A DNA stretch of 64,000 nt, from NCBI RefSeq assembly GCF_025961575.1, contig NZ_JAOQNX010000029.1, positions 1-64,000 of the forward strand, read 5' to 3'. The translations under genes were made by a program, and so were the position numbers. Every line of letters begins with the position of its first letter. Position 1 is the first letter of the stretch. Positions 2,689 to 54,182 of the stretch are shown here, one piece after another. The notes beneath the pieces are model-generated. The model was given only the letters and a program-made list of their open reading frames with translations, was not told where the DNA came from and ran no database searches. Source of the stretch: Rhodoblastus acidophilus. GTDB lineage: Bacteria; Pseudomonadota; Alphaproteobacteria; Rhizobiales; Beijerinckiaceae.

Positions 2689-2988
2689 CATCTGGGCGAA
2701 TTTACTTGGAGATGGCGCCGCGGTTACATGGCGGAAACCTGAGAAAATTTCGTGACGCAACGTCCGCTGAAATCCTGCTCCCACCCGCGATGACGCGGAC
2801 GCGCCGGAGATCTCGAGGGTGGCGCGGTCTCGAGACAGGTTCGTTTTGGCTCCATTACTTCAATTGGACAGTCTTGCGTCAGAAAATGACGTGGCGCGTC
2901 AGATTTCTACGCAAAGTCTCGGCCTGCGCGCTCCGGGCGCGCGGGCGCGATGTCATGGCCCTGTTGGCCGGCTTTACGGAGGATCGTC

Positions 2989-5900: not shown

Positions 5901-8900
5901 CGGCGTTGGCGGAAGCCAGGTCACCATCGGCGGCAATCTGGTCAACAGTTCGTTCGGCTCCTATAACGACGGCGGCGTCTCCGTCGGCGGCAGCAACGTC
6001 AGCCAGGCGGATTCGCTGACCGTCAAGGGGAATGTCGTCAATTCCGGCGCGATCACGCTCAACAGCGGCGCGGGGCGGGCGTCGCTGACGGCGACCGGCG
6101 CCGTGGTGAACAGCGGCGCTCTCAACGCCTATTTCGACTCGCTGATCAGCGCCGGGTCTTACACCCAGACCAATGGCGGCGAACTCACGCTCGAACTGCA
6201 GGGAACCGACGCCGCCCATCACGCGGCCGTCGCGGCGACCGGCGGCGTGACCCTCAACGGCGGAACGCTCAACACGCCGGCGAACACGCTCACCTTCGCC
6301 GCGGGCCAGACCTTCAACCTTTTCACCTTCGCCTCCGGCCAGCTCAACGGCATTTTTAGCGCCCTCGGCGCCCAGGCGGACGGAACGACCTTCAATCTCG
6401 GCAACGGACTGCTGCTCGGCATCGAATATCAAAACAGCGCCGGCCTCATTCAGGAGAAGATCGTCGCAGCGCCCGCCTCGACGGCGGACAATTGGACCGC
6501 AGGTTCGGGCGACTGGGGGACGGCGGCGAGCTGGTCGAACGGCGCGCCGGATTTCTATTCCGCCGTCACGATCTCAACCGCGGCAAATGCGGCCGTGACG
6601 CTCTCGGCCGACGCGACCATCGATTCGCTGAACATCGGCGCGAAGGACGCCCTGACCACCGGCAGCGGAACGGACCTGTCGATCGGCGCCGGCCTCACGG
6701 TGGCGGGCGCGCTCACCGTCAACGGCAAATCCTTCATCGACGGCGCCGCCGTCAACACCGGGACCATCGCCGTCGGTCCGGGCGGGGCGCTGCTCGACAT
6801 TCGCGGCGCGATCACCGGCGCGGGCGGCTTCACCCTGGGCGCCGGCTCCACGCTGGAATTCGGTTCGTCCGACGCCGAAACCGTCACGTTCGCCGGCGCC
6901 AATGCGACGCTGAAGCTCGACAATCCCTCGGCCTTTACGGGAACGCTCGCCAATCTGGCGGTGGGCGACGCCATCGACCTCGCCGGCCTCACGGTGGTCT
7001 CGCCGACGGTGACCGGCGGCAACACGCTCAGCTTCAAGGATTCCAACAACATCGCCTACAGCTACGCGCTCACCGGTTTTCCCGGCGGCGCCGGATTTGC
7101 CGCGCAGAGCGACGGCAATGGCGGGACCCTGCTGGTCGTGACCCCGCCGACGACGACGGTCACGGTGAATGCGGTCGAAGGCAACAACATCATCAACAAG
7201 GCGCAGGCGCAGGCGGGCGTGCCGCTCGGCGGGAGCATCGCCGGGCTCGCGTCGGGCGCCACATTCTCGGTCAAGGTGGTCGACGGCGCCTTCAGCAAAA
7301 CCTACACGGCGACGGTCAATGCGGACGGCAAGACCTGGAGCGCGACCATTCCCGCCGCCGATGCGATCACGCTGCCGGATGGCTCCGCCTCGGTGACGGC
7401 GATCGCCAGCGCCTCGGCGCAGGCGTCGCAGAGCGTGGTCGTCCACCAGACCCTGCCGACCCTGGCGATTTCGCCGGTGGACGGCAACAATATCATCAAC
7501 GCCGCCAATGCGGCGGCGGGAGTGACGATTGCGGGGACCTCAACGGGTCTCGCCTCCGGCGCGACTTTTGGCGTCACGCTGACCGACGGGACGTTTTCCA
7601 AAGCTTATACGGCGACGGTGGGACCGGGCGGCGCCTGGACCACGACGGTTCCGGCCGCCGACGCCAAAACCCTTGCGGACGGAACGGCGACGCTGACCAC
7701 CTCGCAGCCGATCGACGCCTATGGCAATCCGGCCAAGGCGGCGACGGGCGGCGTCACGGTCCACGAGACCCTGCCGACCCTGACGATTTCTCCGGTCGAC
7801 GGCAACAATATCATCAACGCCGCCAATGCGGCGGCGGGGGTGACGATTGCGGGAACCTCCACCGGCCTCGCCTCCGGCGCGACCTTTTCCGTTACGGTCA
7901 CGGACAATGGCGTCGTCACCAATTACAGCGCCACGGTCGGGTCGGGGGGCGCCTGGAGCGCGACCATTCCACCGGCCAACGCCAAGGCCCTGGCCAATGG
8001 CAACGCCCAGATCAGCGCCCAGGCTTTTGACGGCTTCGGAAATCCGTCGAATATCGCCGCCGACACGGTTGCGGTTCAGGGACTCCTGCCGACCCTGACG
8101 ATTTCTCCGGTGGACGGCAACAATGTCATCAACGCCGCCAATGCGGCGGCGGGGGTGACGATTGCGGGAACGTCCAGCGGCCTCGCCTCCGGCGCCACCT
8201 TCACCGTCACCTTGACCGACGGGACTTTCTCCAAGGCCTATACCGCGACGGTGGGCGCCGGCGGCGCCTGGACCGCGACCGTTCCCGCCGCCGACGCCAA
8301 AACCCTTGCGGACGGAACGGCGACGCTGACCACCTCGCAGCCGACCGACGCCTATGGCAACCCCGCCAAGGCGGCGACCGACAGCGTCACCGTCCATGAG
8401 ACGCTGCCGACCCTGACGATTTCGCCGGTTGACGGCAACAATATCATCAACGCCGCCAATGCGGCGGCGGGGGTGACCATTGCCGGAACCTCGACCGGGC
8501 TCGCCTCCGGCTCCACCTTCACCGTCACCTTGACCGATGGGACCTTTTCCAAGGCCTATACCGCGACGGTGGGCGCCGGCGGCGCCTGGACGGCTTCGGT
8601 TCCGGCCGCCGACGCCAAAACACTTGCTGACGGAACGGCGACGCTGACCACCTCGCAGCCGACCGACGCTTACGGCAATCCGGCCAAGGCGGCGACGGGC
8701 AGCGTGACCGTCGACGAGACCCTGCCGACGCTGACGATTTCGCCGGTGGACGGCAACAACATCATCAACGCCGCCAATGCGGCGGCGGGAGTGACGATTG
8801 CGGGGACCTCCACAGGCCTCGCCTCGGGCGCCACCTTCACCGTCACCTTGACCGACGGGACTTTCTCCAAGGCCTATACCGCGACGGTGGGCGCCGGCGG

Positions 8901-11900
8901 CGCCTGGACGGCGACCGTTCCTGCCGCCGACGCTAAAACCCTTGCGGACGGAACGGCGACGCTGACCACCTCGCAGCCGACCGACGCTTACGGAAATCCC
9001 GCCAAGGCCGCGACCGACAGCGTCACGGTCCGCGAGACGCTTCCGACCCTGACGATTTCTCCGGTGGACGGCAACAATATCATCAACGCCGCCAATGCGG
9101 CGGCCGGCGTGACCATTGCCGGAACCTCGACCGGGCTCGCCTCCGGCGCCACCTTCACCGTCACCTTGACCGACGGGACTTTCTCCAAGGTCTACACCGC
9201 GACGGTGGGCGCCGGCGGCGCCTGGACGGCTTCGGTTCCGGCCGCCGACGCCAAAACCCTTGCTGACGGAACGGCGACGCTGACCACCTCGCAGCCGACC
9301 GACGCTTATGGCAACCCCGCCAAGGCCGCCACCGACAGCGTCACGGTCGCCCAGGCCCATGGCCAGCCTCCCACCGTTTCCGCCCAGGAAACGCTGTTCG
9401 GCCTCACCAATCTGACCAGCGACACGATCACCGAGACGGCGACCGCGGCGGCGGGACTGACCATCGCCGGCGTCGAGGTCTTCGATGGCAAGACGGATCT
9501 CGGCGCAGCGACTTTTGGCGCTGGCGTGTGGTCGTTCACCGCGCAGAACCTGAGCGATGGCGCTCATCACTTCACCACTGTGACCACCGACAGCGCCGGC
9601 AACGCCACGACTTCAGCCCTGGCGGAACTGGATGTCGCGACCCAGCCGCCCAAGGTGACGGCGTCCGAAAGCGTCTCCGGCCCGACCAACAAGACGAGTG
9701 TGACCATCACCGGGACCGCGACGGCGGAAGCCGTGCCGGGCGACAGCATTTTGCTGGTGGAAGTGTTGAACGGCGCGACGCCTCTGGGCCCGGCGACGCT
9801 CAATGCAGCGACCGGAGCCTGGTCCTATACCGCGTCGGGGCTCGCCGACGGCGTCTACACGTTCGACACGGTGACCACCGACGCGGCCGGCAATTTCACC
9901 ATCACGACGCTCGCCGAAGTCGACGTCGCCACCAAGGCGCCGACGGTGACGGCGTCGGAAAGCGTGTCGGGCCTCACCAACAAGACCATCGACACGATCA
10001 CCGCAACCGCGACCGCCGAGGCCGTGGGCGCCAACGCCATCAAATCGGTCGTGGTTTATGACGGCGGCAAGGCGCTGGGGACCGCCACCTTGGCCAGCGG
10101 CAAATGGACTTACACCACCGGCGTGCTCGCCGATGGCGCGCATCTCCTGAAGACGGTGACCACCGACCTCGCCGGCAATGTCACGACCACGGCCCTCGCC
10201 GAAGTCGACGTGGCCACCAAGGCGCCGACGGTCACCGCCACGCAGAGCCTCTCCGGCCTCACCAACAAGACCATCGACACGATCACCGCAACCGCGACAG
10301 CCGAGGCCGTGGGCGCCAATGCGGTAAAATCGGTCGTGGTCTATGACGGGAGCAAGGCTTTGGGGCCCGCGACCTTCGCCAGCGGCAAATGGACTTACAC
10401 CACGGGCGTGCTGGCCGATGGCGCGCATCTCCTGAAGACGGTGACCACCGACACGGTCGGCAATGTCACGACCACGGCGCTCGCCGAAGTCGACGTCGCC
10501 ACCAAGGCGCCGACGGTCACCGCTTCGGAAAGCGCCTCGGGCCTGACCCAGAACAGGAGCAACACCATCACCGAGACGGCTGTCGCCGAGGCGGTGGGCG
10601 CGAATGCGATCAAATCCGTCGAAGTCTTCGACCTGTTCAACGGCGTAAAGACCGACCTCGGCGCGGCGTCGCTCGCCCAGGGCGTCTGGACCTTCACGGC
10701 GAGCAACCTGGCCTTTGGCGTCCACACATTTTCAACGGTGACGACCGACGCCGCCGGCAACGCGACAACGACCACGCTCGCCGCGGACAATGTCGAGCCG
10801 CCGCCGCCAAAGGTCAGCATCGCCCTGCAAAAGGATTCCAGCAACGGCAAGGCGATCACCAACACGGATGCGCTGACCGGCGGCGGCGACGCCAACGCCA
10901 CCGTCTCCTTCACCATCGACGGCGTCGCGGCGACCCTGACCGCCGCCGCCGATGCGACGGGCGCCTGGAGCTTCACGCCGGCGGGCCTGTCGCAGGGCGC
11001 GCATACAATCGTCGCCAGCGAAACCAATGGCGGCGGAACGGGCAAGGCGTCGATCGCCTTCACCTATGACACGATCGCGCCGGCGGTGCGCATCGCCACG
11101 CCTTCGGGCGCGGTCGCCAACGCCACGCAGACCATAAACGGCGCCGGCGAGGCCGGAACTCTCGTCCAGCTCTACGACGGAACGACCAAGCTCGGCGCAA
11201 CCGTGACCGTGGGCGCGAACGGGCTGTGGAGAGAGACGGTGACCTTGTCGGGAACCGGCGCGCACGCCATCACGGCTAGGGATACCGATGTCGCCGCCAA
11301 TGTCGGCGTCAGCGCGGTGACGACCCTTACGCTGGACAACCAGATCATCGGCAAGGCGGGACAATTCGTGCTCACCGGCACGAGCGGCAATGACCATATC
11401 GTGGTCGGCGCCGGCAATATCGTGGTCTCCACCCTCGGGGGCGACGACACGGTGACGCTCACCAATGCGGCGGGCCAGTTCCACCTCATTGTCGGCGGCG
11501 GCGGCTCCGACACGCTCGACCTCTCACAGACCACGGGCGGCGCGACGGTCAATCTGGCGCAGAACAAGGCGACCGGCGCGCAGATCGGGACAAATTTCGT
11601 CTTCAATTTCGCCAATATCATTGGCGGCGGCGGGGATGAAACCCTGATCGGCGGCCAGGGCGGCGGCCTGATCCAGGCGGGCTCCGGCAATGACGCGCTC
11701 ACCGGCGGCGGCGGCGCCAATACATTCGCCTTCCTGTCGCCGTTCGGCAAGGATGTGATCACCAACTTCCAGGCTTCCGGACGCAACCATGGCGTGGTCG
11801 TGTTCGACCAGTCGCTGTTCGCCAACTGGTCCCTGGTGGACGCCGCGCTGACCGACACCGGGGCAGGCGCCCAGATCGCCTTGAACGCGAACGAGACGCT

Positions 11901-11967
11901 CACCTTCACCGGCGTCACAAAGGCGACGCTGGAAGCCAACGCCAGCGCCGATTTCAGGTTCGTGTGA
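2989..11967 (+). CDS. Giant RTX-type repetitive adhesin, probable type I secretion substrate
   Basis: A 2992-residue surface protein. I chose the ATG at 2989 because GGAGG at 2978-2982 sits 6 nt before it; an in-frame ATG at 2950 lacks a site. N-terminal 'DNWTTAADWS' beta module, then six tandem copies of a 172-residue beta-helix-like unit (nt about 3259-6060). A second 'DNWTAGSGDW' module follows (about 6487-7140). Next come seven Ig-like units of about 106 residues (7147-9357), five of about 96 residues (9367-10795) and two more divergent Ig-like units. The C terminus has glycine/aspartate RTX turns (GTSGNDHIV, GSGNDALTGGGG; nt 11370-11710), then KDVITNFQ and an ADFRFV end typical of serralysin-like type I substrates. 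There is no Sec signal peptide. No ABC/HlyD/TolC secretion genes lie nearby. Likely role: attachment or biofilm. Calcium binding by the RTX turns is family knowledge. Confidence 0.88.
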   Translation: MVGVSNPSASWNGNSDNWTTAADWSDGAIPDPTTAVTISAGDPQITSNVGTISSLTVSSALSILGGGVLNVTGATLLSGGGVIDLRNGGRLTTSAGLTVSGGNGRLKVDSYGGPGGSQVTIGGNLVNASSGVYSDGGVSVGNNSMGQADALTVQGTLTNTGGLVTVTGGNVAGATAKLTVTGAAAATLTGTFNIVGNAGGAILQYGSGAVTQIGDGASNGGWLALDGANAFAEVGASNSNSLLATLATLANNGGLDLRDGASVTTTTGLAVSGGNARLKIDAYGGSGGSQVTIGGNLINTSWGWYNDGGVSVGNNSMSHADSLTVKGTLTNTGALVTLAGGNVAGATAQLTVTGAAAATLTGQYNIVANAGGAVLQYGSGAVTQIGDGASNSGWLTLDGANAYAEVGASNSNSLLNTLATLANNGGLDLRNGAGVTTTTGLTVNGGTARLKIDSYGGSGGSQATIGGNLVNTSLGYYSDGGVSVGNNSMSHADTLTVKGTLTNTGALVTLAGGNAIGATAQLTVTGAAAATLTGTYNLVANAGGAALQYGSGAVTQIGDGASNGGWLSLDGANAYAEVGATNSNSLLATLATLANNGGLDLRNGAGVTTTTGLTVNGGTARLKIDSYGGSGGSQVTVGGNLVNTSIGYYSDGGVSLGNSSMTHADTLTVKGTLTNTGALVTLTGGNAIGATAQATVTGAAASKLTGTYNIVGNAGGAVLQYGSGAVTQLGDGAGNGAWLLLDGANAFAEVGATSSNSLFNALSSIDANSGLDLRDGASVTTTTGLTLNGGSARLKIDAYGGSGGSQVIVGGNLVNSSFGSYNDGGVSVGNSGMSHADSLTVKGTLTNTAALVTLTGGATGATAQLSVTGAAAAKLTGTYSIVGNAGGAVLQYGSGGVTQLGDGAGNGGWLTIDGANAFAEVGATNSNSLFNALSGIDANSGLDLRDGASITTTTGLTLNGGAARLKVDAYGGVGGSQVTIGGNLVNSSFGSYNDGGVSVGGSNVSQADSLTVKGNVVNSGAITLNSGAGRASLTATGAVVNSGALNAYFDSLISAGSYTQTNGGELTLELQGTDAAHHAAVAATGGVTLNGGTLNTPANTLTFAAGQTFNLFTFASGQLNGIFSALGAQADGTTFNLGNGLLLGIEYQNSAGLIQEKIVAAPASTADNWTAGSGDWGTAASWSNGAPDFYSAVTISTAANAAVTLSADATIDSLNIGAKDALTTGSGTDLSIGAGLTVAGALTVNGKSFIDGAAVNTGTIAVGPGGALLDIRGAITGAGGFTLGAGSTLEFGSSDAETVTFAGANATLKLDNPSAFTGTLANLAVGDAIDLAGLTVVSPTVTGGNTLSFKDSNNIAYSYALTGFPGGAGFAAQSDGNGGTLLVVTPPTTTVTVNAVEGNNIINKAQAQAGVPLGGSIAGLASGATFSVKVVDGAFSKTYTATVNADGKTWSATIPAADAITLPDGSASVTAIASASAQASQSVVVHQTLPTLAISPVDGNNIINAANAAAGVTIAGTSTGLASGATFGVTLTDGTFSKAYTATVGPGGAWTTTVPAADAKTLADGTATLTTSQPIDAYGNPAKAATGGVTVHETLPTLTISPVDGNNIINAANAAAGVTIAGTSTGLASGATFSVTVTDNGVVTNYSATVGSGGAWSATIPPANAKALANGNAQISAQAFDGFGNPSNIAADTVAVQGLLPTLTISPVDGNNVINAANAAAGVTIAGTSSGLASGATFTVTLTDGTFSKAYTATVGAGGAWTATVPAADAKTLADGTATLTTSQPTDAYGNPAKAATDSVTVHETLPTLTISPVDGNNIINAANAAAGVTIAGTSTGLASGSTFTVTLTDGTFSKAYTATVGAGGAWTASVPAADAKTLADGTATLTTSQPTDAYGNPAKAATGSVTVDETLPTLTISPVDGNNIINAANAAAGVTIAGTSTGLASGATFTVTLTDGTFSKAYTATVGAGGAWTATVPAADAKTLADGTATLTTSQPTDAYGNPAKAATDSVTVRETLPTLTISPVDGNNIINAANAAAGVTIAGTSTGLASGATFTVTLTDGTFSKVYTATVGAGGAWTASVPAADAKTLADGTATLTTSQPTDAYGNPAKAATDSVTVAQAHGQPPTVSAQETLFGLTNLTSDTITETATAAAGLTIAGVEVFDGKTDLGAATFGAGVWSFTAQNLSDGAHHFTTVTTDSAGNATTSALAELDVATQPPKVTASESVSGPTNKTSVTITGTATAEAVPGDSILLVEVLNGATPLGPATLNAATGAWSYTASGLADGVYTFDTVTTDAAGNFTITTLAEVDVATKAPTVTASESVSGLTNKTIDTITATATAEAVGANAIKSVVVYDGGKALGTATLASGKWTYTTGVLADGAHLLKTVTTDLAGNVTTTALAEVDVATKAPTVTATQSLSGLTNKTIDTITATATAEAVGANAVKSVVVYDGSKALGPATFASGKWTYTTGVLADGAHLLKTVTTDTVGNVTTTALAEVDVATKAPTVTASESASGLTQNRSNTITETAVAEAVGANAIKSVEVFDLFNGVKTDLGAASLAQGVWTFTASNLAFGVHTFSTVTTDAAGNATTTTLAADNVEPPPPKVSIALQKDSSNGKAITNTDALTGGGDANATVSFTIDGVAATLTAAADATGAWSFTPAGLSQGAHTIVASETNGGGTGKASIAFTYDTIAPAVRIATPSGAVANATQTINGAGEAGTLVQLYDGTTKLGATVTVGANGLWRETVTLSGTGAHAITARDTDVAANVGVSAVTTLTLDNQIIGKAGQFVLTGTSGNDHIVVGAGNIVVSTLGGDDTVTLTNAAGQFHLIVGGGGSDTLDLSQTTGGATVNLAQNKATGAQIGTNFVFNFANIIGGGGDETLIGGQGGGLIQAGSGNDALTGGGGANTFAFLSPFGKDVITNFQASGRNHGVVVFDQSLFANWSLVDAALTDTGAGAQIALNANETLTFTGVTKATLEANASADFRFV
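3259..6060 (+). repeat. Six tandem 516-bp coding repeats (172-aa units)
   Basis: The marker ggcagccagg recurs at about 3332, 3848, 4365, 4881, 5398 and 5911, with spacing 513-517 bp. Copies 2-5 share long identical stretches at the DNA level, for example the segments coding GLDLRNGAGVTTTTGL and AVLQYGSGAVTQ. This points to recent amplification or gene conversion within the adhesin gene. The last copy diverges at its 3' end. Confidence 0.9.
7147..9357 (+). repeat. Seven tandem ~318-bp coding repeats (Ig-like units)
   Basis: Unit starts at 7147 (degenerate), 7453, 7771, 8086, 8404, 8722 and 9040, with 315-318 bp periods for the last six. The signature is LPTLTISPVDGNNIINAANAAAGVTIAGTS, read in pieces. 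Units 4-7 are nearly identical in DNA; unit 3 carries a variant middle (TVTDNGVVTNYSATVG). Confidence 0.92.
9367..10795 (+). repeat. Five tandem ~285-bp coding repeats (second Ig-like class)
   Basis: The signature APTVTASESVSGLTNKT recurs at about 9367, 9649, 9940, 10225 and 10510, period 282-291 bp. Units 3 and 4 are close to identical over long DNA runs. This repeat family differs from the 318-bp one immediately upstream. Confidence 0.9.
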
Positions 11968-44166: not shown

Positions 44167-45588
44167 TTACTCCGCCGACTGGCGCAGCGGCTCGGGCAAA
44201 CCCTCCAGCACGGCGTCGCGCCATTCGCGCTTCAGCGGCAGGATCGGTGGATTCGGCGCGCATTCGGGTTCCGGCGTCATCGGCGCCGGGTCCAGGTTTT
44301 CGGCGCGGGCCGCCTTGCGCATGAACAGATTGTAGACAAGCCATTGCGCGCGGCTGCGCTTGCCCGTGAACGGAAACCGGCGCGCAATCGAATTCGCGGA
44401 ATAGAATTGCTTGTAGGACTCGTCGACCCCGGCGCGCAATTGGTCCGGCCGCATCTGCGCCGGCGAAAACACCACATGGCCCTGGTCGTACATGGTCCAG
44501 TCGTAGGAAAAAATCCGGTTCGCCTTTCTCATCTCGTACCAGGTGAGCGTGCCGGGGTAGGGGGTCAGCGCCGAAAATGCGCAGGCGTCGAAACCGGCGC
44601 CGATGTTAAAACCGGTCGTCGCGCCGAACACCTGGGGATCGTCGCCGTCGAAGCCGAACATGAACAGGCCGAACACCGAAATGCCGTAGCTCTGGATTTT
44701 CTTGACCAGCGCCGCGAAATGGTCGGGCTGGTTGACGAGCTTGTGCACGCTTTTCAGCGTGTCGCGCGAGATCGACTCAAAGCCGATGCTGAGCATGGTG
44801 CAGCCGCTTTCCGCCGCCAGCTCCAGCATGCGCTCATCCTCGGCGAGTTTCGAGGTGACGCCGGCCTGCCATTTGATCCCGCGCCCGCGCAAGGCGCGCA
44901 TCACTTCCTTGGGGCGTTCCGGCGTGCCGAAGAAATCGGCGTCGTTGATGGAAATGTTTTTGGAGCCGCAGGCCTCGATTTCGGCGATCACCTCGTTCAC
45001 GGGCCGGTAGCGGAATTTCAGCCCATTCATCAGCGGTTCCGCGCAGAACGTGCAGCCGGTGTGGCAGCCGCGCGAGGTCTGCACAAAGGTCTTGTTCACA
45101 TAGCGATGTTTTTTGAGGAGGTCGTAGCGCGGCATGGCCATGCCGACCATGGAATGCAGTTTTTGTGCGCGATAGAGGCCGCGCAGGCGTCCGGCGCGCA
45201 AATCGTCGAGCAGCCGGTCCATCACCAGCTCCGCCTCGCCCACCACCACGGCGTCGCAGTGTTGAAGCGCCTCCTGCGCCATGAAACTCGGATGAACGCC
45301 GCCCATCACTACCGGCACGCCCTTGGCGCGGAAGGCGTCGGCGATTTCGTAGCCGCGGTTGACGTAGGAGGTCATGGCGGAAATCCCAACCATGTCCGCC
45401 TTCAGATCAAAATCCACGGTCTCGATGTTTTCGTCGGTGAGCACGACTTCATATTGGTCGCGCGGGATGCAGGCGGCGACGGCAAGTAGGCCGGCGAGCG
45501 GCGAATAAAGCGCCCGGTTGAAATAGATCGGCCGCGTCGTCAGCGAGTCGGTTTTCGGATTGATGAGATGAATGACGCGCGTGGGCAT
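44167..45588 (-). CDS. B12-binding-domain radical SAM protein
   Basis: 473 residues. A cobalamin-binding-like Rossmann domain (about 1-140: YSPLAGLLAVAACIP, DMVGISAMTSYV, VMGGVHPSFM) precedes the radical SAM core with C175-x3-C179-x2-C182 (GCHTGCTFC), which binds the 4Fe-4S cluster and SAM. The core ends with GLFMFGFDGDDP and TPYPGTLTW, followed by a DUF4070-like tail. The family includes BchE-like cyclases and methylases such as the hopanoid C-2 and C-3 methylases; this copy cannot be assigned among them. No biosynthetic partner adjoins it; the KAI2-like hydrolase upstream on the same strand is 71 bp away. Confidence 0.88.
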   Translation of the reverse strand: MPTRVIHLINPKTDSLTTRPIYFNRALYSPLAGLLAVAACIPRDQYEVVLTDENIETVDFDLKADMVGISAMTSYVNRGYEIADAFRAKGVPVVMGGVHPSFMAQEALQHCDAVVVGEAELVMDRLLDDLRAGRLRGLYRAQKLHSMVGMAMPRYDLLKKHRYVNKTFVQTSRGCHTGCTFCAEPLMNGLKFRYRPVNEVIAEIEACGSKNISINDADFFGTPERPKEVMRALRGRGIKWQAGVTSKLAEDERMLELAAESGCTMLSIGFESISRDTLKSVHKLVNQPDHFAALVKKIQSYGISVFGLFMFGFDGDDPQVFGATTGFNIGAGFDACAFSALTPYPGTLTWYEMRKANRIFSYDWTMYDQGHVVFSPAQMRPDQLRAGVDESYKQFYSANSIARRFPFTGKRSRAQWLVYNLFMRKAARAENLDPAPMTPEPECAPNPPILPLKREWRDAVLEGLPEPLRQSAE

Positions 45589-46999: not shown

Positions 47000-47117
47000 G
47001 CTTTAAAGCGCTCAAGTTGAACTGGACGTGCGCGCCGCGCGGCCCCATCTCACGACCACCAAACGATGATTCGTGAGAATTGCCGCGCAGGCCGCGCGTC
47101 GAGAATGGGAATGCCTT

Positions 47118-48350
47118 ATGCTCAAGGACCAGGATTTCGCCGAGGACAAAGGCGCAGGTTTGCAAGCGCCGGGTCCGAACGCCTTGACGGAAAAAGCTGA
47201 AGCGCCCGGCCCGTCGCTCGCCCCTGCGGCGCCAGCCTCCCCGCCGCCGAAGGGCGAAAAACCCCAGGACACGCGCGGCCTGATCCGCCGGCGCCCGATC
47301 CTCTCCGCTCTGGCCGGATTGGCGCTCGCCGCCGCCTTCGGGGCGGGCGGGCTCTGGTGGGACCAATCCGCGCATTTCGAATCGACGGACGACGCCTTCA
47401 TCGCCTCGCGCGCCATTCCGCTGGCGCCCAAGGTCGGGGGCTATGTCGCCGAAGTTCCCGTCACCGACAATCAGAAGGTGGCCAAAGGCGCGTTGATCGC
47501 GCGCATCGACGACCGCGATTATCGCGCCGCCCTCGACCAGGCCAAGGCGCAAGTGGGGGTGGCCCAGGCCAATATCGGCAATATCGACGCCCAGATCGAC
47601 GTGCAGCAGGCGCAAATCGCCGCCAGCGTGGCGCAGGTGGAGCAGGCGCAGGCCGCGCTCGCCTTCGCGCAGCAGCAGTCGAAGCGCTATGCCGAGCTCG
47701 CCAAGCGCGGCGCCGGCACCGTGCAGAACGAGCAGCAATATGTCTCGCAATCCGCGCAGAGCGAGGCGGCGGTGAAGACCGCGCAGGCCGGCGTCGAGGT
47801 CGCGCGCCGCCAGGTGGATGCGCTCAAGGCGCAGCGCCAGAGCGCCCAGGCCAGTCTCGCGCAGGCCCAGGCGCAAGAGGATCAGGCGCGGCTCAATCTC
47901 GATTACACCCGCGTCACCGCCGCCGAACCGGGGCGCATTGTCAATCTCACCGCGCTTCCCGGCGAATTCGCCGCCGCCGGAACCAATCTCACCATGTTCG
48001 TGCCCGATGAAATCTGGGTCACCGCCAATTTCAAGGAAAACCAGCTCGATTCCATGCGTCCCGGCCAAAAGGTCATGCTCAGCGTCGACGCCTATCCGGA
48101 CCGGGAATTCACCGGCCATGTCGCCAGCATCCAGCCGGGTTCCGGCACGGCCTTTTCGCTGCTGCCGGCGCAGAACGCCACCGGCAATTACGTGAAGATC
48201 GTGCAGCGCGTGCCGGTGAAGATCGTGCTGGACGATCCGCCCGAAGACATCGTGCTCGGCCCCGGCATGTCGGTCGTGCCCAGCGTGCGCGTCGATCCCG
48301 CGCCCTCGCTTTACGAGCGCTTGCGCGGAAGGGGACCGCATTCGTCATGA
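47118..48350 (+). CDS. emrA: EmrA-type membrane-fusion protein (HlyD family)
   Basis: 410 residues from the ATG at 47118. A cytoplasmic N-terminal tail (about 55 residues, Pro/Ala-rich) precedes one transmembrane helix (ILSALAGLALAAAFGAGGLW). The HlyD fold follows: ESTDDAFIASRAIPLAPKVGGYVAEVPV, a long coiled-coil hairpin rich in Gln/Ala (about 135-235), and the return lipoyl part RVTAAEPGRIVNLTALPGEF. It links the MFS pump to the outer membrane. The stop overlaps the emrB start (ATGA). Confidence 0.92.
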   Translation: MLKDQDFAEDKGAGLQAPGPNALTEKAEAPGPSLAPAAPASPPPKGEKPQDTRGLIRRRPILSALAGLALAAAFGAGGLWWDQSAHFESTDDAFIASRAIPLAPKVGGYVAEVPVTDNQKVAKGALIARIDDRDYRAALDQAKAQVGVAQANIGNIDAQIDVQQAQIAASVAQVEQAQAALAFAQQQSKRYAELAKRGAGTVQNEQQYVSQSAQSEAAVKTAQAGVEVARRQVDALKAQRQSAQASLAQAQAQEDQARLNLDYTRVTAAEPGRIVNLTALPGEFAAAGTNLTMFVPDEIWVTANFKENQLDSMRPGQKVMLSVDAYPDREFTGHVASIQPGSGTAFSLLPAQNATGNYVKIVQRVPVKIVLDDPPEDIVLGPGMSVVPSVRVDPAPSLYERLRGRGPHSS

Positions 48351-49909
48351 GCGAGCGCGCCAATGCGCCGGTGCTCGCGGAAGGGGTGAATCCGTGGCTG
48401 ATCGCCATTGTCGTGGCGCTCGCGGCCTTCATGGAAGTGCTCGACACCACCATCGCCAATGTCGCCTTGCGCTATATCGCCGGCAGCCTCGGCGTCAGCG
48501 CCGATGAATCCTCCTGGGTGGTCACCACTTATCTCGTCTCCAACGCCATCATCGTCACCGCCACCAGCTTTTTCGCGCAGAGATTCGGCCGCAAGAGCTT
48601 TTTTCTGTTCTGCCTCGGCCTGTTCACGGTCAGCTCGGTGCTGTGCGGCTTCGCCTGGAATCTGCAATCTTTGTTGCTGTTCCGGCTGATGCAGGGGTTT
48701 GCCGGCGGCGGCATGGTGCCCGTCGCGCAATCCATCCTCGCCGACAGCTTTCCGCCGCAAAAGCGCGGCCAAGCCTTCGCCTTGTTCGGCGTCGCAGTCG
48801 TCGTGGCGCCGGTGGTCGGGCCGACGCTTGGCGGCTGGCTCTCCGACAATCTGTCCTGGCACTGGTGCTTTCTCATCAACGGACCCGTCGGTTTGCTGTC
48901 CATGGGGCTGATCTACGCGCTGATCCGCGAGACGCCGCCGGTGACAAAAATCCGTTTCGATTGGGTCGGCTTCGTGCTGGTCGCCTGTTTCCTGGGCTCG
49001 CTCGAAGTCATCCTCGATCGCGGCCAGATCGAGGACTGGTTCGCCTCGCGTTTCATCGTGACCTTCACGGCGCTCTCGGCGCTCGCCTTCATCGCGCTGA
49101 TCCCTTGGGAGCTCAAGCAGAAAGACCCGCTGATCGACCTGCGCATGCTGGCGAGCCGCCAATTCGGCTCCTGTTTCGTGGTCATGATGGCGACCGGCGC
49201 CATCCTGCTGGCGACGACGCAGTTCATGCCGCAAATGGTGCAGGAGGATTTCGGCTATACCGCCACCTGGGCCGGCCTCGCTCTGTCGCCGGGCGGCGTG
49301 GTCGCCATGGGCATGATGTTCATGGTCGGGCAATTGTCGCGGCGCGTTCAACCCAAATATCTGATCGCGACGGGGGCGGCGGTTTGCGCCTTGTCGATGT
49401 ACGGGCTGTCGGGCCTGACCGGCGATGTGGATTTCTGGTTCTTCGCCGATTGGCGCATGGTGATCAGCATCGGCCTGCCGCTCATTTTCATCCCGATCAC
49501 CGCCGCCTCCTATGACGGCGTGCCCGCGGGCAAGACCGACATGGCCTCGGCTTTGCTCAATGCGGCGCGCAACACCGGCGGCTCCATCGGCGTGTCGCTG
49601 GCGTCGAACGTGCTGGCGCATCGCCAGCAATTTCATCTCAGCCGGCTGTCGGAACAGACCATTCCCTCCGACATCGGCTATCAGCAGACGGTGCAGGAGG
49701 CGACGCATTATTTCGCCACCCATGCCGGCGCGGCGGACGCGAAGGCGCGCGCCTTCGCCTATATCGCCGACCAGGCGCAACAGCAGGCGTCGCTGCTCGC
49801 CTATATCGATGTGTTCTGGACGCTGATGCTGATCTCGCTCTCCGCCATTCCGCTCGCCCTGCTGCTGCGAAAGGTGAAGCTCGGCGCCGCTGCTCCGGCC
49901 GGGCATTGA
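48347..49909 (+). CDS. emrB: EmrB/QacA-type MFS multidrug exporter (DHA2)
   Basis: 520 residues with 14 hydrophobic helices expected of DHA2. Motif C-like and motif D1 pieces: VLDTTIANVALRYIAGSLG, SSWVVTTYLVSNAI, RFGRKSFFLFCLGLF, and RLMQGFAGGGMVPVAQSIL, then GPTLGGWLSDNLSWHWCFLINGPVGL. It exports hydrophobic drugs or metabolites through an EmrA/TolC-type tripartite path; the outer-membrane protein is not encoded here. The P450 gene follows 202 bp later on the same strand, so a shared substrate is possible but not shown. Confidence 0.94.
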   Translation: MSERANAPVLAEGVNPWLIAIVVALAAFMEVLDTTIANVALRYIAGSLGVSADESSWVVTTYLVSNAIIVTATSFFAQRFGRKSFFLFCLGLFTVSSVLCGFAWNLQSLLLFRLMQGFAGGGMVPVAQSILADSFPPQKRGQAFALFGVAVVVAPVVGPTLGGWLSDNLSWHWCFLINGPVGLLSMGLIYALIRETPPVTKIRFDWVGFVLVACFLGSLEVILDRGQIEDWFASRFIVTFTALSALAFIALIPWELKQKDPLIDLRMLASRQFGSCFVVMMATGAILLATTQFMPQMVQEDFGYTATWAGLALSPGGVVAMGMMFMVGQLSRRVQPKYLIATGAAVCALSMYGLSGLTGDVDFWFFADWRMVISIGLPLIFIPITAASYDGVPAGKTDMASALLNAARNTGGSIGVSLASNVLAHRQQFHLSRLSEQTIPSDIGYQQTVQEATHYFATHAGAADAKARAFAYIADQAQQQASLLAYIDVFWTLMLISLSAIPLALLLRKVKLGAAAPAGH

Positions 49910-50111
49910 CCGGCGCAAGAAGATTTGAACGACGTAGCCGCGGGTCTGCGGAGCAAAAAAGAAAATTTTCGTCAGCGCCTTAGGAAAATGAGAGGCGAAT
50001 CCGTCGGCGCGAGCGTTCGCCGTTGATGGCGCCTCTTGCGCCTCGAACATGTTATCTCATCGGGGGCCTGTCAGTCCTTTCGATCACGGTCGCCCTCGAC
50101 GGAGGTGAGCC

Positions 50112-51833
50112 ATGGACATTGCGTCGTTCAAGCGGATTGCAAGCGTTGGCGATCTCGAGGGACCGGGCCCGTTCGCCCTGTCGGCGGAGGGGGTCGACCT
50201 TGCGGTGGTTCGCACCGCCAACGGGTGGCGCGCCTTTGATGGCCGCTGCCCGCACCTTGGCGCTCTCCTCGGCGAAGGCGAACTGGAAGGCGATCATCTC
50301 GTCTGCCGTAATCACCGCTGGCGCTTCGAACTCGCGTCGGGCCATCGGGTGGGCGGACCGGAATGCCTGTCGTCCTGTCCGGTCGTCGAACGGCGCGGCG
50401 ACATTTATGCTGACATTTCGAGCCTCAGGAAAGACGTCAAGAACAAGCCGGCGCTGCGCAAGGTGAGCGCCTTGCCGGGTCCCAGGCCCCTGCCTTTCCT
50501 TGGCAACATTCATCAACTCGATCCCACCTCGGCGCATCTTATTCTCGAGCGCTGGGCGGCCCGCTATGGGTCCGTGTATACGTACAGAATGGGGGGCGCC
50601 CGCGCCGTCGCGATCAGCGATCCCGGCCTCATCCACGAGGCGCTGCGCCAGCGCCCCGAGACGTTTCGGCGTTACAGCAAGATGGACCGCGTCCTGGCCG
50701 AGACCGGCTTGCGCTTCGTGTTCAACGCCGAAGGCGACGCCTGGCGCCTTCACAGGAAACTGACGGTCGCGGCGCTCTCCCAACGCCAGGTGCGGCAAGT
50801 CTATCCGCATATCAAAATCGTCGCCGAGCGCCTCATTCGGCGCTGGCGACGCCTCGCCTCGGACGGCGGCGACCTCGACATTCTCGACGAACTCAAGCGC
50901 TTCACCGTCGACGTGGCCGCGCTGATTGTCTTCGGCCATGACGCCAACACGGTCGAGCAGGACGACGACCCCATCAACAAGCGTCTGGCGGTGATTTTTC
51001 CCACGTGGTCGCGGCGGATTCTGACGTTTTTCCCGACCTGGCGCTTTGTGAAGCTGCCGCGCGACCGCCACTTCGACCGCTGCATGGCGGAAACCCTTGA
51101 ATGGCTGTCCCAATCGCTCGCCGCCGCGCGGGAACGCGCCGCAAAGGGCGCGGCGGCGTCGACCTTCCTGGATGCGATGGTCAATGCGACCGACGAGAAC
51201 GGCGCCGGCTTTTCCGACGAGGTGATCATCTGGAACCTGTTCGGCCTGGTCCTGGCTGGCGAGGACACGACGGCCAATTCCGCCGCCTGGGCGATTCACC
51301 TGTTGGCGGATCACCCGGAATGGGCGCGCCGCCTCAGGGACGAGGCCGACAGCCTGCTCGGCGGGGCGCCCACGCCCGGCGACCTCGATGCCGCCAATGG
51401 CTTGACGGTCGCCGGCGCCGTCGCCAATGAGGCGATGCGGCTCCGACCCGTGGCGCCCGTTTCCGTCATCGAAGCGAATGTCGACACCAGCCTCGGCGAT
51501 ATCGAAATTCCGCGCGGAACCCTGGTGACCGTTCTTTCCCGGCCGGCTGCCGTCTCCGACGCGCATTTCACTGACGCCGGCGCCTTCATGCCGCAGCGCT
51601 GGCTGGAGCCGCCAGCCGGGGCGCATGATCTCAGCGCGCTCATCCCGTTCGGCTCGGGACCGCGCATGTGTCCCGGACGATCGCTGGCGTTGATCGAGAT
51701 GAACACGATTCTCGCCTTGCTCTACAAGAATTTCGAGGTCGAGCGTCGCGGGCGTCCGGAGGATGTCAAGGAAGTCTACGGCTTCGTCATGTCGCCGGGG
51801 GGCATGAAGGTGCGGCTGCGCCCCCGCGCCTGA
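50112..51833 (+). CDS. Rieske ferredoxin - cytochrome P450 fusion
   Basis: 573 residues encoding two redox domains. Residues 1-105 form a Rieske [2Fe-2S] domain with C46-P-H48, a 16-residue gap and C65-R-N-H68, followed by RWRFELASG. A linker with LPGPRPLPFLGNI (121-133) leads into a complete P450: C-helix WRLHR (211-215), I-helix AGEDTT (382-387), E440-x-x-R443 and heme loop FGSGPRMCPG with proximal C520. All P450 hallmark residues are intact. The natural reading is a self-contained electron path in which the Rieske centre feeds the heme, still needing a reductase that is not encoded nearby. GGAGG lies 6 nt before the ATG. The substrate is unknown. Confidence 0.92.
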   Translation: MDIASFKRIASVGDLEGPGPFALSAEGVDLAVVRTANGWRAFDGRCPHLGALLGEGELEGDHLVCRNHRWRFELASGHRVGGPECLSSCPVVERRGDIYADISSLRKDVKNKPALRKVSALPGPRPLPFLGNIHQLDPTSAHLILERWAARYGSVYTYRMGGARAVAISDPGLIHEALRQRPETFRRYSKMDRVLAETGLRFVFNAEGDAWRLHRKLTVAALSQRQVRQVYPHIKIVAERLIRRWRRLASDGGDLDILDELKRFTVDVAALIVFGHDANTVEQDDDPINKRLAVIFPTWSRRILTFFPTWRFVKLPRDRHFDRCMAETLEWLSQSLAAARERAAKGAAASTFLDAMVNATDENGAGFSDEVIIWNLFGLVLAGEDTTANSAAWAIHLLADHPEWARRLRDEADSLLGGAPTPGDLDAANGLTVAGAVANEAMRLRPVAPVSVIEANVDTSLGDIEIPRGTLVTVLSRPAAVSDAHFTDAGAFMPQRWLEPPAGAHDLSALIPFGSGPRMCPGRSLALIEMNTILALLYKNFEVERRGRPEDVKEVYGFVMSPGGMKVRLRPRA

Positions 51834-51855
51834 GCTTTTTCGCTCGAAAAGGCTC
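51832..51855. terminator. Hairpin between convergent genes
   Basis: GAGCTTTTTCG (51832-51842) pairs with CGAAAAGGCTC (51845-51855) with one G-T wobble. It lies at the stop of the P450 gene and 19 bp before the end of the opposing 142-aa gene, so it could terminate both transcripts. Confidence 0.45.
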
Positions 51856-51873
51856 TCGGGGGCGCAGCGCGCA

Positions 51874-52302
51874 TCACGACATCAGATGCGCCGGCGGCTG
51901 CGGATTGTTGGCCGGGTTGGAGTCGTATTTGTTGATTTTGGCGACCAGCGGTCCGCCCACCAGCGGTTTCAAATCGGCTTCGAGCGCCTCCGCGGCGTCC
52001 TTCGCGTAAACCTCGTCGCCGTTCACATAGAAAGTGACGATCTTCTTGTGCTTGGCCACCTTGACCGGGTCCTCGATGGTGACCTTGGTCCATTTGTACA
52101 GCGGGCTCTGCGTCTCGCCGGCGGCCTCGGCCTCCGCGACGAACTCGGCGAAGGCCTCGTACTGGTTGCGGATCTGCGCGTTATGCCGTTCGGCGACGGA
52201 GACGAGCGGCTCGAGTTCGGGCGCGGCGCCGCCTTCGCAAATCAATTCGGCCGCGCGGTCCGTCAGGGTGGCGCGGATTTGAAACTGCCATTCCTCGCTC
52301 AT
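51874..52302 (-). CDS. Hypothetical protein, conserved-looking
   Basis: 142 residues, soluble and acidic, from the ATG at 52302 with GGAG 6 nt upstream. The N-terminal half is helical (LTDRAAELICEGG, RNQYEAFAEFVAEAEAAG), the second half has strands (KWTKVTIEDP, KIVTFYVNGDEVYA). No motif I know. It lies 59 bp downstream of the GH15 gene on the same strand and may be co-transcribed. No function can be proposed. Confidence 0.7.
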   Translation of the reverse strand: MSEEWQFQIRATLTDRAAELICEGGAAPELEPLVSVAERHNAQIRNQYEAFAEFVAEAEAAGETQSPLYKWTKVTIEDPVKVAKHKKIVTFYVNGDEVYAKDAAEALEADLKPLVGGPLVAKINKYDSNPANNPQPPAHLMS

Positions 52303-52361
52303 CGTTTTCTCCAGTTCGAGCTGACCTATATAAAGTCATTGGCGCGCCAAGGGGCAAGGTC

Positions 52362-54182
52362 TTATGCCCGCCCATGCGGCGGCGGCCGCGCGCCATGCGG
52401 CCGTGGGCGCGACTGGCTGAGCAGGTTGTGCGCCGTATTGACCAGCGCGATATGGGAAAAGGCCTGGGGAAAATTCCCCAGAAAACGCTTGGCCCCGGGG
52501 TCGTATTCCTCGGAGAGCAGGCCAAGATCGTTGCGCAGCGCCAGCAGTCGCTCGAACAGTTTTTTCGCCTCGGCGCGCCGGCCGGTCAGCACATAGGCGT
52601 CGGCGAGCCAAAAGCTGCAGGCGAGAAAAGCGCCTTCGCCCGGCGGCAGGCCGTCATCGGTTTCGTGCGTGTGGTAGCGCATGACAAAACCGTCGCGCAT
52701 CAGCCGCCGCTCGATGGCGGCGATTGTGCCGGTCACCCGGGGATCGTCCGGCGGCAAAAAGCCGACGGCCGGGATGAGCAGGGCGCTGGCGTCGAGATTT
52801 TTCGAGCCATAGGTCTGGACGAAGGCGCCGATTTCGGGATCAAAACCCTTTTCGCAGACTTGGCGGTGCATATGCTGGCGCAGCGCCCGCCATTGGTCGA
52901 GCGGGCCGTCCAAGCCGAAATTTTCGGCGCTGCGGATGGCGCGGTCGATCGCCACCCAGGCCATCACCTTGGAATGGGTGAAATTTTGTCGCCCGCCGCG
53001 CACCTCCCAAATGCCTTCGTCCGGGCTCTCCCAGATTTTGCTCAAATGCTCCACCAGCGCGCATTGAAAATCCCAGCCTTCCCCGGGATTGCGCAAGGAG
53101 CCGATGCGCGCCTGGTGCAGCGCGTCCATCACCTCGCCATAGACGTCGATCTGCAATTGTTCCGAGGCGGCATTGCCGATGCGCACCGGTTTGGAGCCTT
53201 CGTAGCCGCTCAGCCAGGGAATCTCCCATTCGGTGAGCCGTTTTTCTCCGGCGAGCCCATACATGATCTGCATCTGGCTGGGACTGCCGGCCGCCGCGCG
53301 CAAAAGCCATTTGCGCCATTCGCGCGCCTCCTCGTAATAGCCGGCGTTCATGAAGGCGAGCAGGGCCAGCGTGGCGTCGCGCAGCCAGCAGATGCGATAG
53401 TCCCAGTTGCGCGGGCCGCCGATTTTTTCCGGCAGGGAGGTGGTCGGCGCCGCGACAATGCCGCCGGTCGGCGCGTAGATCAGCGCCTTGAGCGTGATCA
53501 GCGACCGGGCGAGCGCGTCGCGCCAGGCGTCGGGATGGCCATGCTTGTGGTGGGCGGAGGCCCAGTCGCGCCAGAACGCTTCGGTGTCCCGCAAGGCCTG
53601 GAACGCGTCGACCGGGTCGGGAACGGGCAGGTGCGAGGGCGCGTAGCTCAGGACGAAGGGCGCGGTGTGGCCTGCGTGAACCGTGAATTCCGCAACCGTC
53701 GTCATGCCCTCGCCGCGCAGCGCCACCGCTGTGTGCAGCGCCACCTGATCGGGTCCGGACACGGCCAGCCAGGCGCCGTCGGCGGTGCGGCGCACCCAGG
53801 GAATTGCGGCGCCGTGATCGAAGCGCAGGGTGAGGTCGCAGCGCATGCGCACGGCGCCGCGCTCGCCCCGGACCAGCCGCACCAGCGAGGACGCGCCGGC
53901 GCGCAGCGGAAAGAAGTCGATCAGGGTGGCCTCGCCCTCTTGGGTGACGAAAGTGGTTTCGAGGATCAGCGTGTCCGGCCGGTAGCGTCGTGTGACCGTC
54001 GGCTTGGGATCGGCGGGGGCGAGGCGCCAGCGGCCGTTGTCGGCGTCGCCGAGCAAAGCGGCGAAACAGGCGCCGGAATCGAAGCGCGGCCAGCACAGCC
54101 AGTCGATGGAGCCGTCCTTCGCCACCAGCGCCGCGGTCTCGCAATCGCCGATCAATCCGTAATCTTCAATGGCCGAGGGCAT
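52362..54182 (-). CDS. GH15 glycoside hydrolase (glucoamylase/trehalase-like)
   Basis: 606 residues from the ATG at 54182, with GGAG 5 nt upstream; the frame extends 18 codons further without signals. The N-terminal beta-domain opens AIEDYGLIGDCETAALVAKDGSIDWLCWPRFDS, the standard start of this family. The (alpha/alpha)6 barrel has GGPRNWDYRICWLRDA and the C-terminal SEEYDPGAKRFLGNFPQAFSHIAL, where the second catalytic Glu lies. No signal peptide, so cytoplasmic. Members hydrolyse alpha-glucans or trehalose to glucose. It is divergent from the pentose phosphate operon (92-bp gap), which would use the product after phosphorylation. Confidence 0.93.
   Translation of the reverse strand: MPSAIEDYGLIGDCETAALVAKDGSIDWLCWPRFDSGACFAALLGDADNGRWRLAPADPKPTVTRRYRPDTLILETTFVTQEGEATLIDFFPLRAGASSLVRLVRGERGAVRMRCDLTLRFDHGAAIPWVRRTADGAWLAVSGPDQVALHTAVALRGEGMTTVAEFTVHAGHTAPFVLSYAPSHLPVPDPVDAFQALRDTEAFWRDWASAHHKHGHPDAWRDALARSLITLKALIYAPTGGIVAAPTTSLPEKIGGPRNWDYRICWLRDATLALLAFMNAGYYEEAREWRKWLLRAAAGSPSQMQIMYGLAGEKRLTEWEIPWLSGYEGSKPVRIGNAASEQLQIDVYGEVMDALHQARIGSLRNPGEGWDFQCALVEHLSKIWESPDEGIWEVRGGRQNFTHSKVMAWVAIDRAIRSAENFGLDGPLDQWRALRQHMHRQVCEKGFDPEIGAFVQTYGSKNLDASALLIPAVGFLPPDDPRVTGTIAAIERRLMRDGFVMRYHTHETDDGLPPGEGAFLACSFWLADAYVLTGRRAEAKKLFERLLALRNDLGLLSEEYDPGAKRFLGNFPQAFSHIALVNTAHNLLSQSRPRPHGARPPPHGRA

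Follow-up and report, generated by a model that had tools for sequence, protein, structure and literature searches.

Does this locus encode a natural cytochrome P450 that carries a Rieske-type ferredoxin in its own polypeptide chain, and, if so, how would such a chain receive its electrons and how did it arise? The usual reductants of P450s are flavoproteins or cysteine-ligated ferredoxins. The window (i.e., the whole stretch of 64,000 nucleotides that was analysed) includes a single frame with zero internal stops, specifying a protein of 573 amino acids, in which Pfam recognises both a Rieske domain (PF00355; E 3.9e-13; 49.6 bits against a cut-off of 20.3) and a p450 domain (PF00067; E 1.1e-76, well over the cut-off), the two profiles being covered over nearly their whole length. 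The features are listed in Table 1. The preliminary description had claimed an intact Rieske motif in frame with a P450 that retains its motifs, joined without a frameshift. Both statements hold: all cluster ligands, ExxR, the I-helix motif and the haem cysteine are present in one uninterrupted frame, and the fused frame is kept in relatives. The gene is a true, conserved single-chain Rieske-P450, and it is the sole PF00067 match in the 4.9 Mb genome.

Table 1. Features of the Rieske-P450 fusion gene, its upstream neighbours in the window and the gene clusters shared by three related fusions.
Feature	Position	Strand	Basis
Rieske-cytochrome P450 fusion gene	50112..51833	+	ORF and translation, 573 aa
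Shine-Dalgarno-like GGAGGTGA ahead of start codon	50101..50108	+	position read by eye
Rieske [2Fe-2S] domain, residues 9-85	50136..50366	+	PF00355; phmmer to T4moC 1sjg
Cluster-binding motif C46-x-H48 ... C65-x-x-H68	50247..50315	+	motif reading; invariant, 7 full-length sequences
Interdomain linker, about residues 102-120	50415..50471	+	T4moC alignment; stand-alone P450s with LPGP motif near start
Cytochrome P450 domain, residues 122-567	50475..51812	+	PF00067
I-helix oxygen-activation motif AGEDTT, 382-387	51255..51272	+	motif reading
K-helix ExxR, E440-A-M-R443	51429..51440	+	motif reading
Haem-binding loop FGSGPRMCPG, ligand Cys520	51648..51677	+	motif reading
EmrA-type adaptor	47073-48350	+	upstream of fusion
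EmrB/DHA2 pump	48347-49909	+	upstream of fusion
Shared polyketide-type cluster, AM1 megaplasmid	L042:48-13827		
Shared polyketide-type cluster, second genome	L067:168-12624		
Shared polyketide-type cluster, third genome	L049:8498-19499		

The ATG of the fusion gene is preceded by GGAGG, six bases away. Residues 1-160 of the protein include no further Met, so that a free P450 has no ATG start ahead of its N-terminal motif; an ATG for a free P450 is likewise absent from the three complete proteins of the group called clade A below. The proline-rich linker described earlier turned out to be something else. The stretch in question, LPGPRPLP (residues 121-128), has its counterpart in an LPGPxxLPxxGN-like stretch near the start of stand-alone P450 relatives and therefore belongs to the P450, while the true linker in front of it is 19 amino acids long and includes one proline.

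The ligand set inside the Rieske domain, CxH-16-CxxH, is that of T4moC/BphF-type ferredoxins; those are separate small proteins, whereas the Rieske moiety here is a domain of a 573-amino-acid chain. The near full-length profile, the haem loop FxxGxRxCxG, ExxR and the I-helix motif place the second domain in the P450 superfamily, and an iron-sulphur ferredoxin and a P450 in one chain make the protein a P450-ferredoxin fusion. Two other assignments were considered. A fully self-sufficient P450 (CYP102 and CYP116B types) is ruled out, as Pfam finds Rieske and p450 domains only, without an FMN, FAD or NAD(P)H domain. A Rieske non-haem iron oxygenase is also ruled out: the catalytic domain of those enzymes, a mononuclear iron domain, is missing from the Pfam matches, and a P450 follows the Rieske domain in its place.

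A homologue search in which both domains had to occur in one chain, the check proposed in the preliminary description, returned six more full-length fusions and two partial ones. Two of the full-length fusions come from the same genus (72% and 67% identity; the 72% relative is on a Rhodoblastus MAG contig), and three further ones, including one on the megaplasmid of Methylorubrum extorquens AM1, are approximately 35-37% identical. The sixth is encoded on a plasmid of the bacteroidote Persicobacter sp. JZB09: its 576-amino-acid frame is 27% identical and carries CPHQEANLCEGSHEGEHIFCPKH and FGGGPRFCPG.

Full-length fusions occur in 3 of 11 same-genus genomes, the strain under study included. In a draw of 199 genomes from the family, a match at E<=1e-30 occurs in 85, almost without exception P450-only and 26-34% identical, and the full-length fusions are those of the own genome, G008 and G150. 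In the same draw, the match in G211 (contig L020) is divided over two frames by an NN gap, G060 harbours a P450-only relative at 51% identity, and the Rieske domain in G191 (63%) runs off the contig end. Further out, the matches amount to two in 397 genomes of the order at E<=1e-90 (the own fusion and that of G274), eight in 385 of the class at E<=1e-60 (the own fusion and seven P450-only) and four in 398 of the phylum (the own fusion and three P450-only). At most three candidates per genome were scored in the order, class and phylum draws, and at most six in the family draw, so that fusions may be missed in them. Within the genus of G150, one of ten genomes, G150 itself, has the fusion.

The plasmid search gave 544 matching records; nine of the 20 listed (H1-H9) were inspected and two of these are fusions, the other 11 listed, outside the inspected set, being 25-31% identical. 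A genome scan with exact peptide patterns found three relatives, two of them fusions. Queries with the Rieske domain returned no protein annotated as a P450 among five matches, nor among the 60 listed of 194 (the AM1 record is unannotated). L033 and L039, two weak P450 matches with an alignment extending into the Rieske region, include no Rieske motif; viral contigs yielded no fusion and one P450-only relative, phages no fusion and three weak P450 matches. The sampled draws and plasmids together imply that the fusion is rare and patchy where sampled, yet it occurs in two phyla. We also noted another type of frame, often of 540-590 codons, with an N-terminal CLHRG...H Rieske domain in many Hyphomicrobiales genomes (L107, L109-L123, L125-L130); two similar plasmid matches are annotated as glutamate synthase-related.

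In a P450 tree of 31 rows, the fusions appear at three places among P450-only relatives. Clade A consists of the window sequence, L019, L022 and L020, with the P450-only L048 as its sister; clade B consists of AM1, G150 and G274; and the Persicobacter fusion groups with P450-only bacteroidote relatives. A single fusion clade is rejected on this tree (p-AU 8.0e-5 for all eight, 2.7e-5 without Persicobacter), and at least three changes are needed. We tentatively suggest, at somewhat less than even odds, that members of one P450 family acquired a Rieske ferredoxin at their front end at least three separate times (the Rhodoblastus type, the Methylorubrum type with its polyketide cluster, and Persicobacter), which would make these proteins a recurrent, unnoticed redox class served by a separate flavin reductase.

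The competing account of the origin, which leaves the mechanism untouched, has one ancient fusion followed by repeated loss of the Rieske domain, and we regard its chances as just short of even. Given that the P450 tree rejects one clade, a single origin requires several losses. The Rieske tree (62 rows), in which clades A and B are each recovered and Persicobacter stands apart, is compatible with one common clade of fusions (p-AU 0.32 with nine rows, 0.39 without Persicobacter), on 109 columns and with long branches. Two Rieske searches also speak for one origin: the AM1 fusion is the best of five plasmid matches to the window's Rieske domain (E 9e-7), and the G150 fusion outranks every non-fusion match among the matches listed. 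With the Rieske domain of G274 as query, however, a non-fusion protein scores level with that of the window (57.5 versus 56.8 bits), and the Persicobacter Rieske domain is near T4moC in the best Rieske tree, albeit on an especially long branch.

The preliminary description had named non-conserved Rieske cysteines or histidines in homologues as one possible refutation, and this attempt at refutation failed: the Rieske ligands, with identical spacing, ExxR and the haem cysteine do not vary in any of the seven full-length fusions, counting that of the window, down to 27% identity to the window protein, and the Rieske ligands are present in both partial fusions. The I-helix motif reads AGEDTT in six of the seven and AGEETS in Persicobacter. 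The linker has the same length in the two same-genus relatives, and measures 34-36 amino acids in clade B and 13 in Persicobacter. Three same-genus pairs are under purifying selection: their Nei-Gojobori dN/dS is 0.11-0.19 in the Rieske domain and 0.20-0.29 in the P450. For one pair from clade B, the ratios are 0.61 and 0.14, respectively (the other two pairs, with dS >= 2, are given no ratio); the Rieske domain of clade B evolves faster than its P450.

What would the Rieske domain do? Most probably, it feeds the haem of a monooxygenase-type P450 that thus has its own proximal donor, with the reductase separate, and the best reading of the comparisons is that it may substitute for the separate ferredoxin. 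A separate NADH-dependent flavin reductase would deliver single electrons to the cluster predicted to assemble in the T4moC-like N-terminal domain, from which they would cross the short linker to the haem, where O2 would be activated on a candidate substrate, perhaps lipid- or polyketide-like. Such an enzyme would be half self-sufficient, with the ferredoxin built into the P450 chain and the reductase as a second protein. Among solved structures, the T4moC entries (1sjg, 1vm9, 4p1b/4p1c; phmmer to 1sjg, E 4.5e-13 over residues 5-101) come closest to the Rieske domain. T4moC, from toluene 4-monooxygenase, is a stand-alone electron-donor ferredoxin for a diiron hydroxylase, its cluster lying approximately 12 Å from the diiron centre in the complex, as stated in the relevant passages of PMC4200526, whereas the Rieske domain of the window is joined to a haem enzyme. 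A Rieske-type protein as a P450 donor has a precedent in trans: the pertinent part of PMC12979805 gives the stand-alone Rieske-type ferredoxin SpFdx4, which has Cys2His2 ligation of its [2Fe-2S] cluster and a separate reductase, as the natural donor of the P450 DoxA. There, ferredoxin and P450 are separate proteins; in the window, they are one chain.

Pfam detects neither a flavin nor an NAD(P)H domain in the fusion, which accordingly depends on a reductase in another protein. One candidate in the own genome is its one protein with Pyr_redox_2 and Reductase_C domains (BphA4/PdR-type; L142:1301-2575; 424 amino acids). One full-length reductase of this type occurs in each of the four clade-A hosts tested (the own genome, G008, G009 and G211, the last with an additional short partial match). 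Neither a Rieske motif nor a credible ferredoxin was found in the 10-12 kb around each of these reductases (for the own genome, one flank extends over 1.3 kb only), where the own genome has one cysteine-motif match in a frame that looks chance-like by eye. The own-genome reductase adjoins a two-component system, for which reason it may be a general gene. PF14759 has no match in G274, which has a fusion, and a partial match only in G150; clade B, therefore, probably uses another reductase. In the window, the fusion has no reductase gene beside it, and the relatives show no consistent partner either. A frame with MOSC/YiiM and FAD_binding_6 similarity (L050:521-1726, minus strand), possibly a reductase, lies approximately 2.3 kb from a Rieske-P450 fragment on the other strand, and a flavodoxin-like frame occurs downstream of the fusion in L049.

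It is unlikely, in our estimation, that the Rieske domain binds its cluster without being the direct donor, and instead senses redox state or oxygen, plays a structural role or provides a docking site, the haem being reduced by a different ferredoxin. P450-only relatives, at 34-51% identity, do speak for this, and the one at 51%, which does without a Rieske domain, counts against the proposed path. Their flanks contain no credible Rieske gene within approximately 8-10 kb per side at L021, L043-L046, L048 and L051-L053 (at the other loci, no more than approximately 1.5 kb on one or both sides), the two frames with a Rieske-motif match in the flanks of L046 being 34 and 60 codons long; seven matches to cysteine-ligated ferredoxin motifs near P450 genes are all chance-like translations by eye. 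The faster evolution of the clade-B Rieske domain points the same way. Against it stand the nearest solved relative, T4moC, which is a dedicated electron-transfer ferredoxin, the invariance of the Rieske ligands over three P450 branches, and the transfer from a Rieske protein to a P450 in trans described in that part of PMC12979805. Electron donation to the haem remains our preferred function.

The genes around the fusions bear on substrate and export. In clade A, there is no common neighbour among those scanned: the window fusion is preceded by EmrAB and followed by a GH15-family enzyme, L019 has ATP-grasp/citrate-binding and CoA-ligase-like genes and a VWD protein, L022 an ABC exporter and a Usg-like gene, and L020 phosphofructokinase and Asp/Glu racemase-family genes. 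In the three genomes of clade B, the fusion is the last gene of a same-strand, polyketide-type run. The seven genes in AM1 are, in order, an aminotransferase-flavin monooxygenase, a ketosynthase, an acyltransferase, an AMP-binding acyl-ligase-like gene, a 298-amino-acid frame (no NCBIfam match; thioesterase-like by sequence and gene order only), DUF3047 and the fusion, and the core order is common to the two other genomes. The family search describes the G150 cluster as ketosynthase, acyltransferase, ligase-like, thioesterase, DUF3047 and fusion; the order in G274 is the same, with a flavin-monooxygenase-like frame first and without the aminotransferase part, as judged by eye from sequence and order. 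A flavin monooxygenase is, thus, part of two of the three clusters. In AM1, a class-III aminotransferase and the flavin monooxygenase appear to be joined in one 873-amino-acid frame (L042:48-2669). We found no paper on a polyketide-type cluster with a Rieske-P450 in the open-access PMC literature.

The Persicobacter fusion is preceded (L068:3501-7623) by a serine-palmitoyltransferase-like gene, below the model cut-off, and an SDR gene split in two frames, the first piece of which is similar to many SDR families, 3-ketodihydrosphingosine reductase being one of them. From these neighbours, it is a fair guess that the fusions of clade B and Persicobacter act on lipid-like or polyketide substrates. 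P. psychrovividus (L046) harbours a P450 without a Rieske domain in a different context. Elsewhere in the window, a B12-binding radical SAM protein is encoded at 44167-45588 on the minus strand (best NCBIfam match HpnJ, 83.7 bits against a cut-off of 577.6; below all models listed), and a plus-strand frame of 3005 amino acids (2950-11967), which has bacterial Ig-like domains and weakly matches an RTX-type repeat, probably specifies a large surface or secreted protein.

That the upstream EmrAB exports the product of the P450, the three genes forming one functional unit, had also been proposed in the preliminary description; we consider it improbable as a specific arrangement. The fusion starts 202 bases downstream of the EmrB stop on the same strand, and the lack of a sigma-70-like promoter match in 49700-52400 is a weak sign in favour. 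In G008, however, the closest EmrB (88%) is approximately 68 kb from the fusion on the same contig, EmrB relatives at 72-73% occur in G003, G006 and G007, where the genus scan found no fusion, and a scan of the genes next to the L019, L022 and L020 fusions turned up no EmrAB. Exporters from different families do lie beside the L022 fusion (ABC) and beside the P450-only gene of L048 (a NodT-type outer-membrane factor and HlyD), so that a looser link with export may exist.

An assembly or frameshift artefact joining two neighbouring genes, as the L020 relative split over two frames might suggest, is refuted by the relatives to the point of being negligible, since that split is an NN assembly gap and the frame is intact in six records besides the window, the AM1 megaplasmid among them.

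As a kind, a ferredoxin fused to a P450 is already known, as is the pairing of a Rieske protein with a P450 in trans. Rieske non-haem iron oxygenases likewise have an N-terminal Rieske domain ahead of the oxygenase in one chain; catalysis in them belongs to a mononuclear non-haem iron domain, whereas the catalytic domain of the window protein is a P450. CYP116B/P450-RhF enzymes are self-sufficient, with the reductase fused C-terminally. The haem domains of P450BM3 are among the solved P450 matches of the window protein; in CYP102 (P450BM3), too, a redox module is fused to the P450, but it is a C-terminal reductase according to the section of PMC9519919 that concerns it, whereas the window protein has no such flavin or NAD(P)H modules. 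The CYP51-ferredoxin of Methylococcus capsulatus comes closest in plan, P450 and iron-sulphur ferredoxin sharing one chain with a 20-amino-acid linker; in the account of it in PMC9519919, the ferredoxin is C-terminal, with three conserved cysteines and a Glu at the fourth position, where the window protein has an N-terminal Rieske domain with two cysteines and two histidines. On a neighbouring but different question, the passages of a review of Rieske oxygenases that address self-sufficiency (PMC12445004) state that no self-sufficient one has been identified yet. We found no paper on a natural Rieske-P450 single chain in the open-access PMC literature, a scope that leaves aside most subscription papers, preprints and domain databases.

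A conserved Rieske-P450 architecture would surprise a P450 specialist, and it comes with an electron path that is directly testable: in a natural chain of this kind, Rieske-to-haem transfer can be followed at a fixed 1:1 stoichiometry. The fusion may also offer a compact donor module for engineering. As AM1 is a laboratory organism, the member on its megaplasmid, at the end of the seven-gene cluster, provides a starting point for genetics and product finding. For the P450 family itself, the fusions would mean that a redox partner has been repeatedly gained or lost inside one family.
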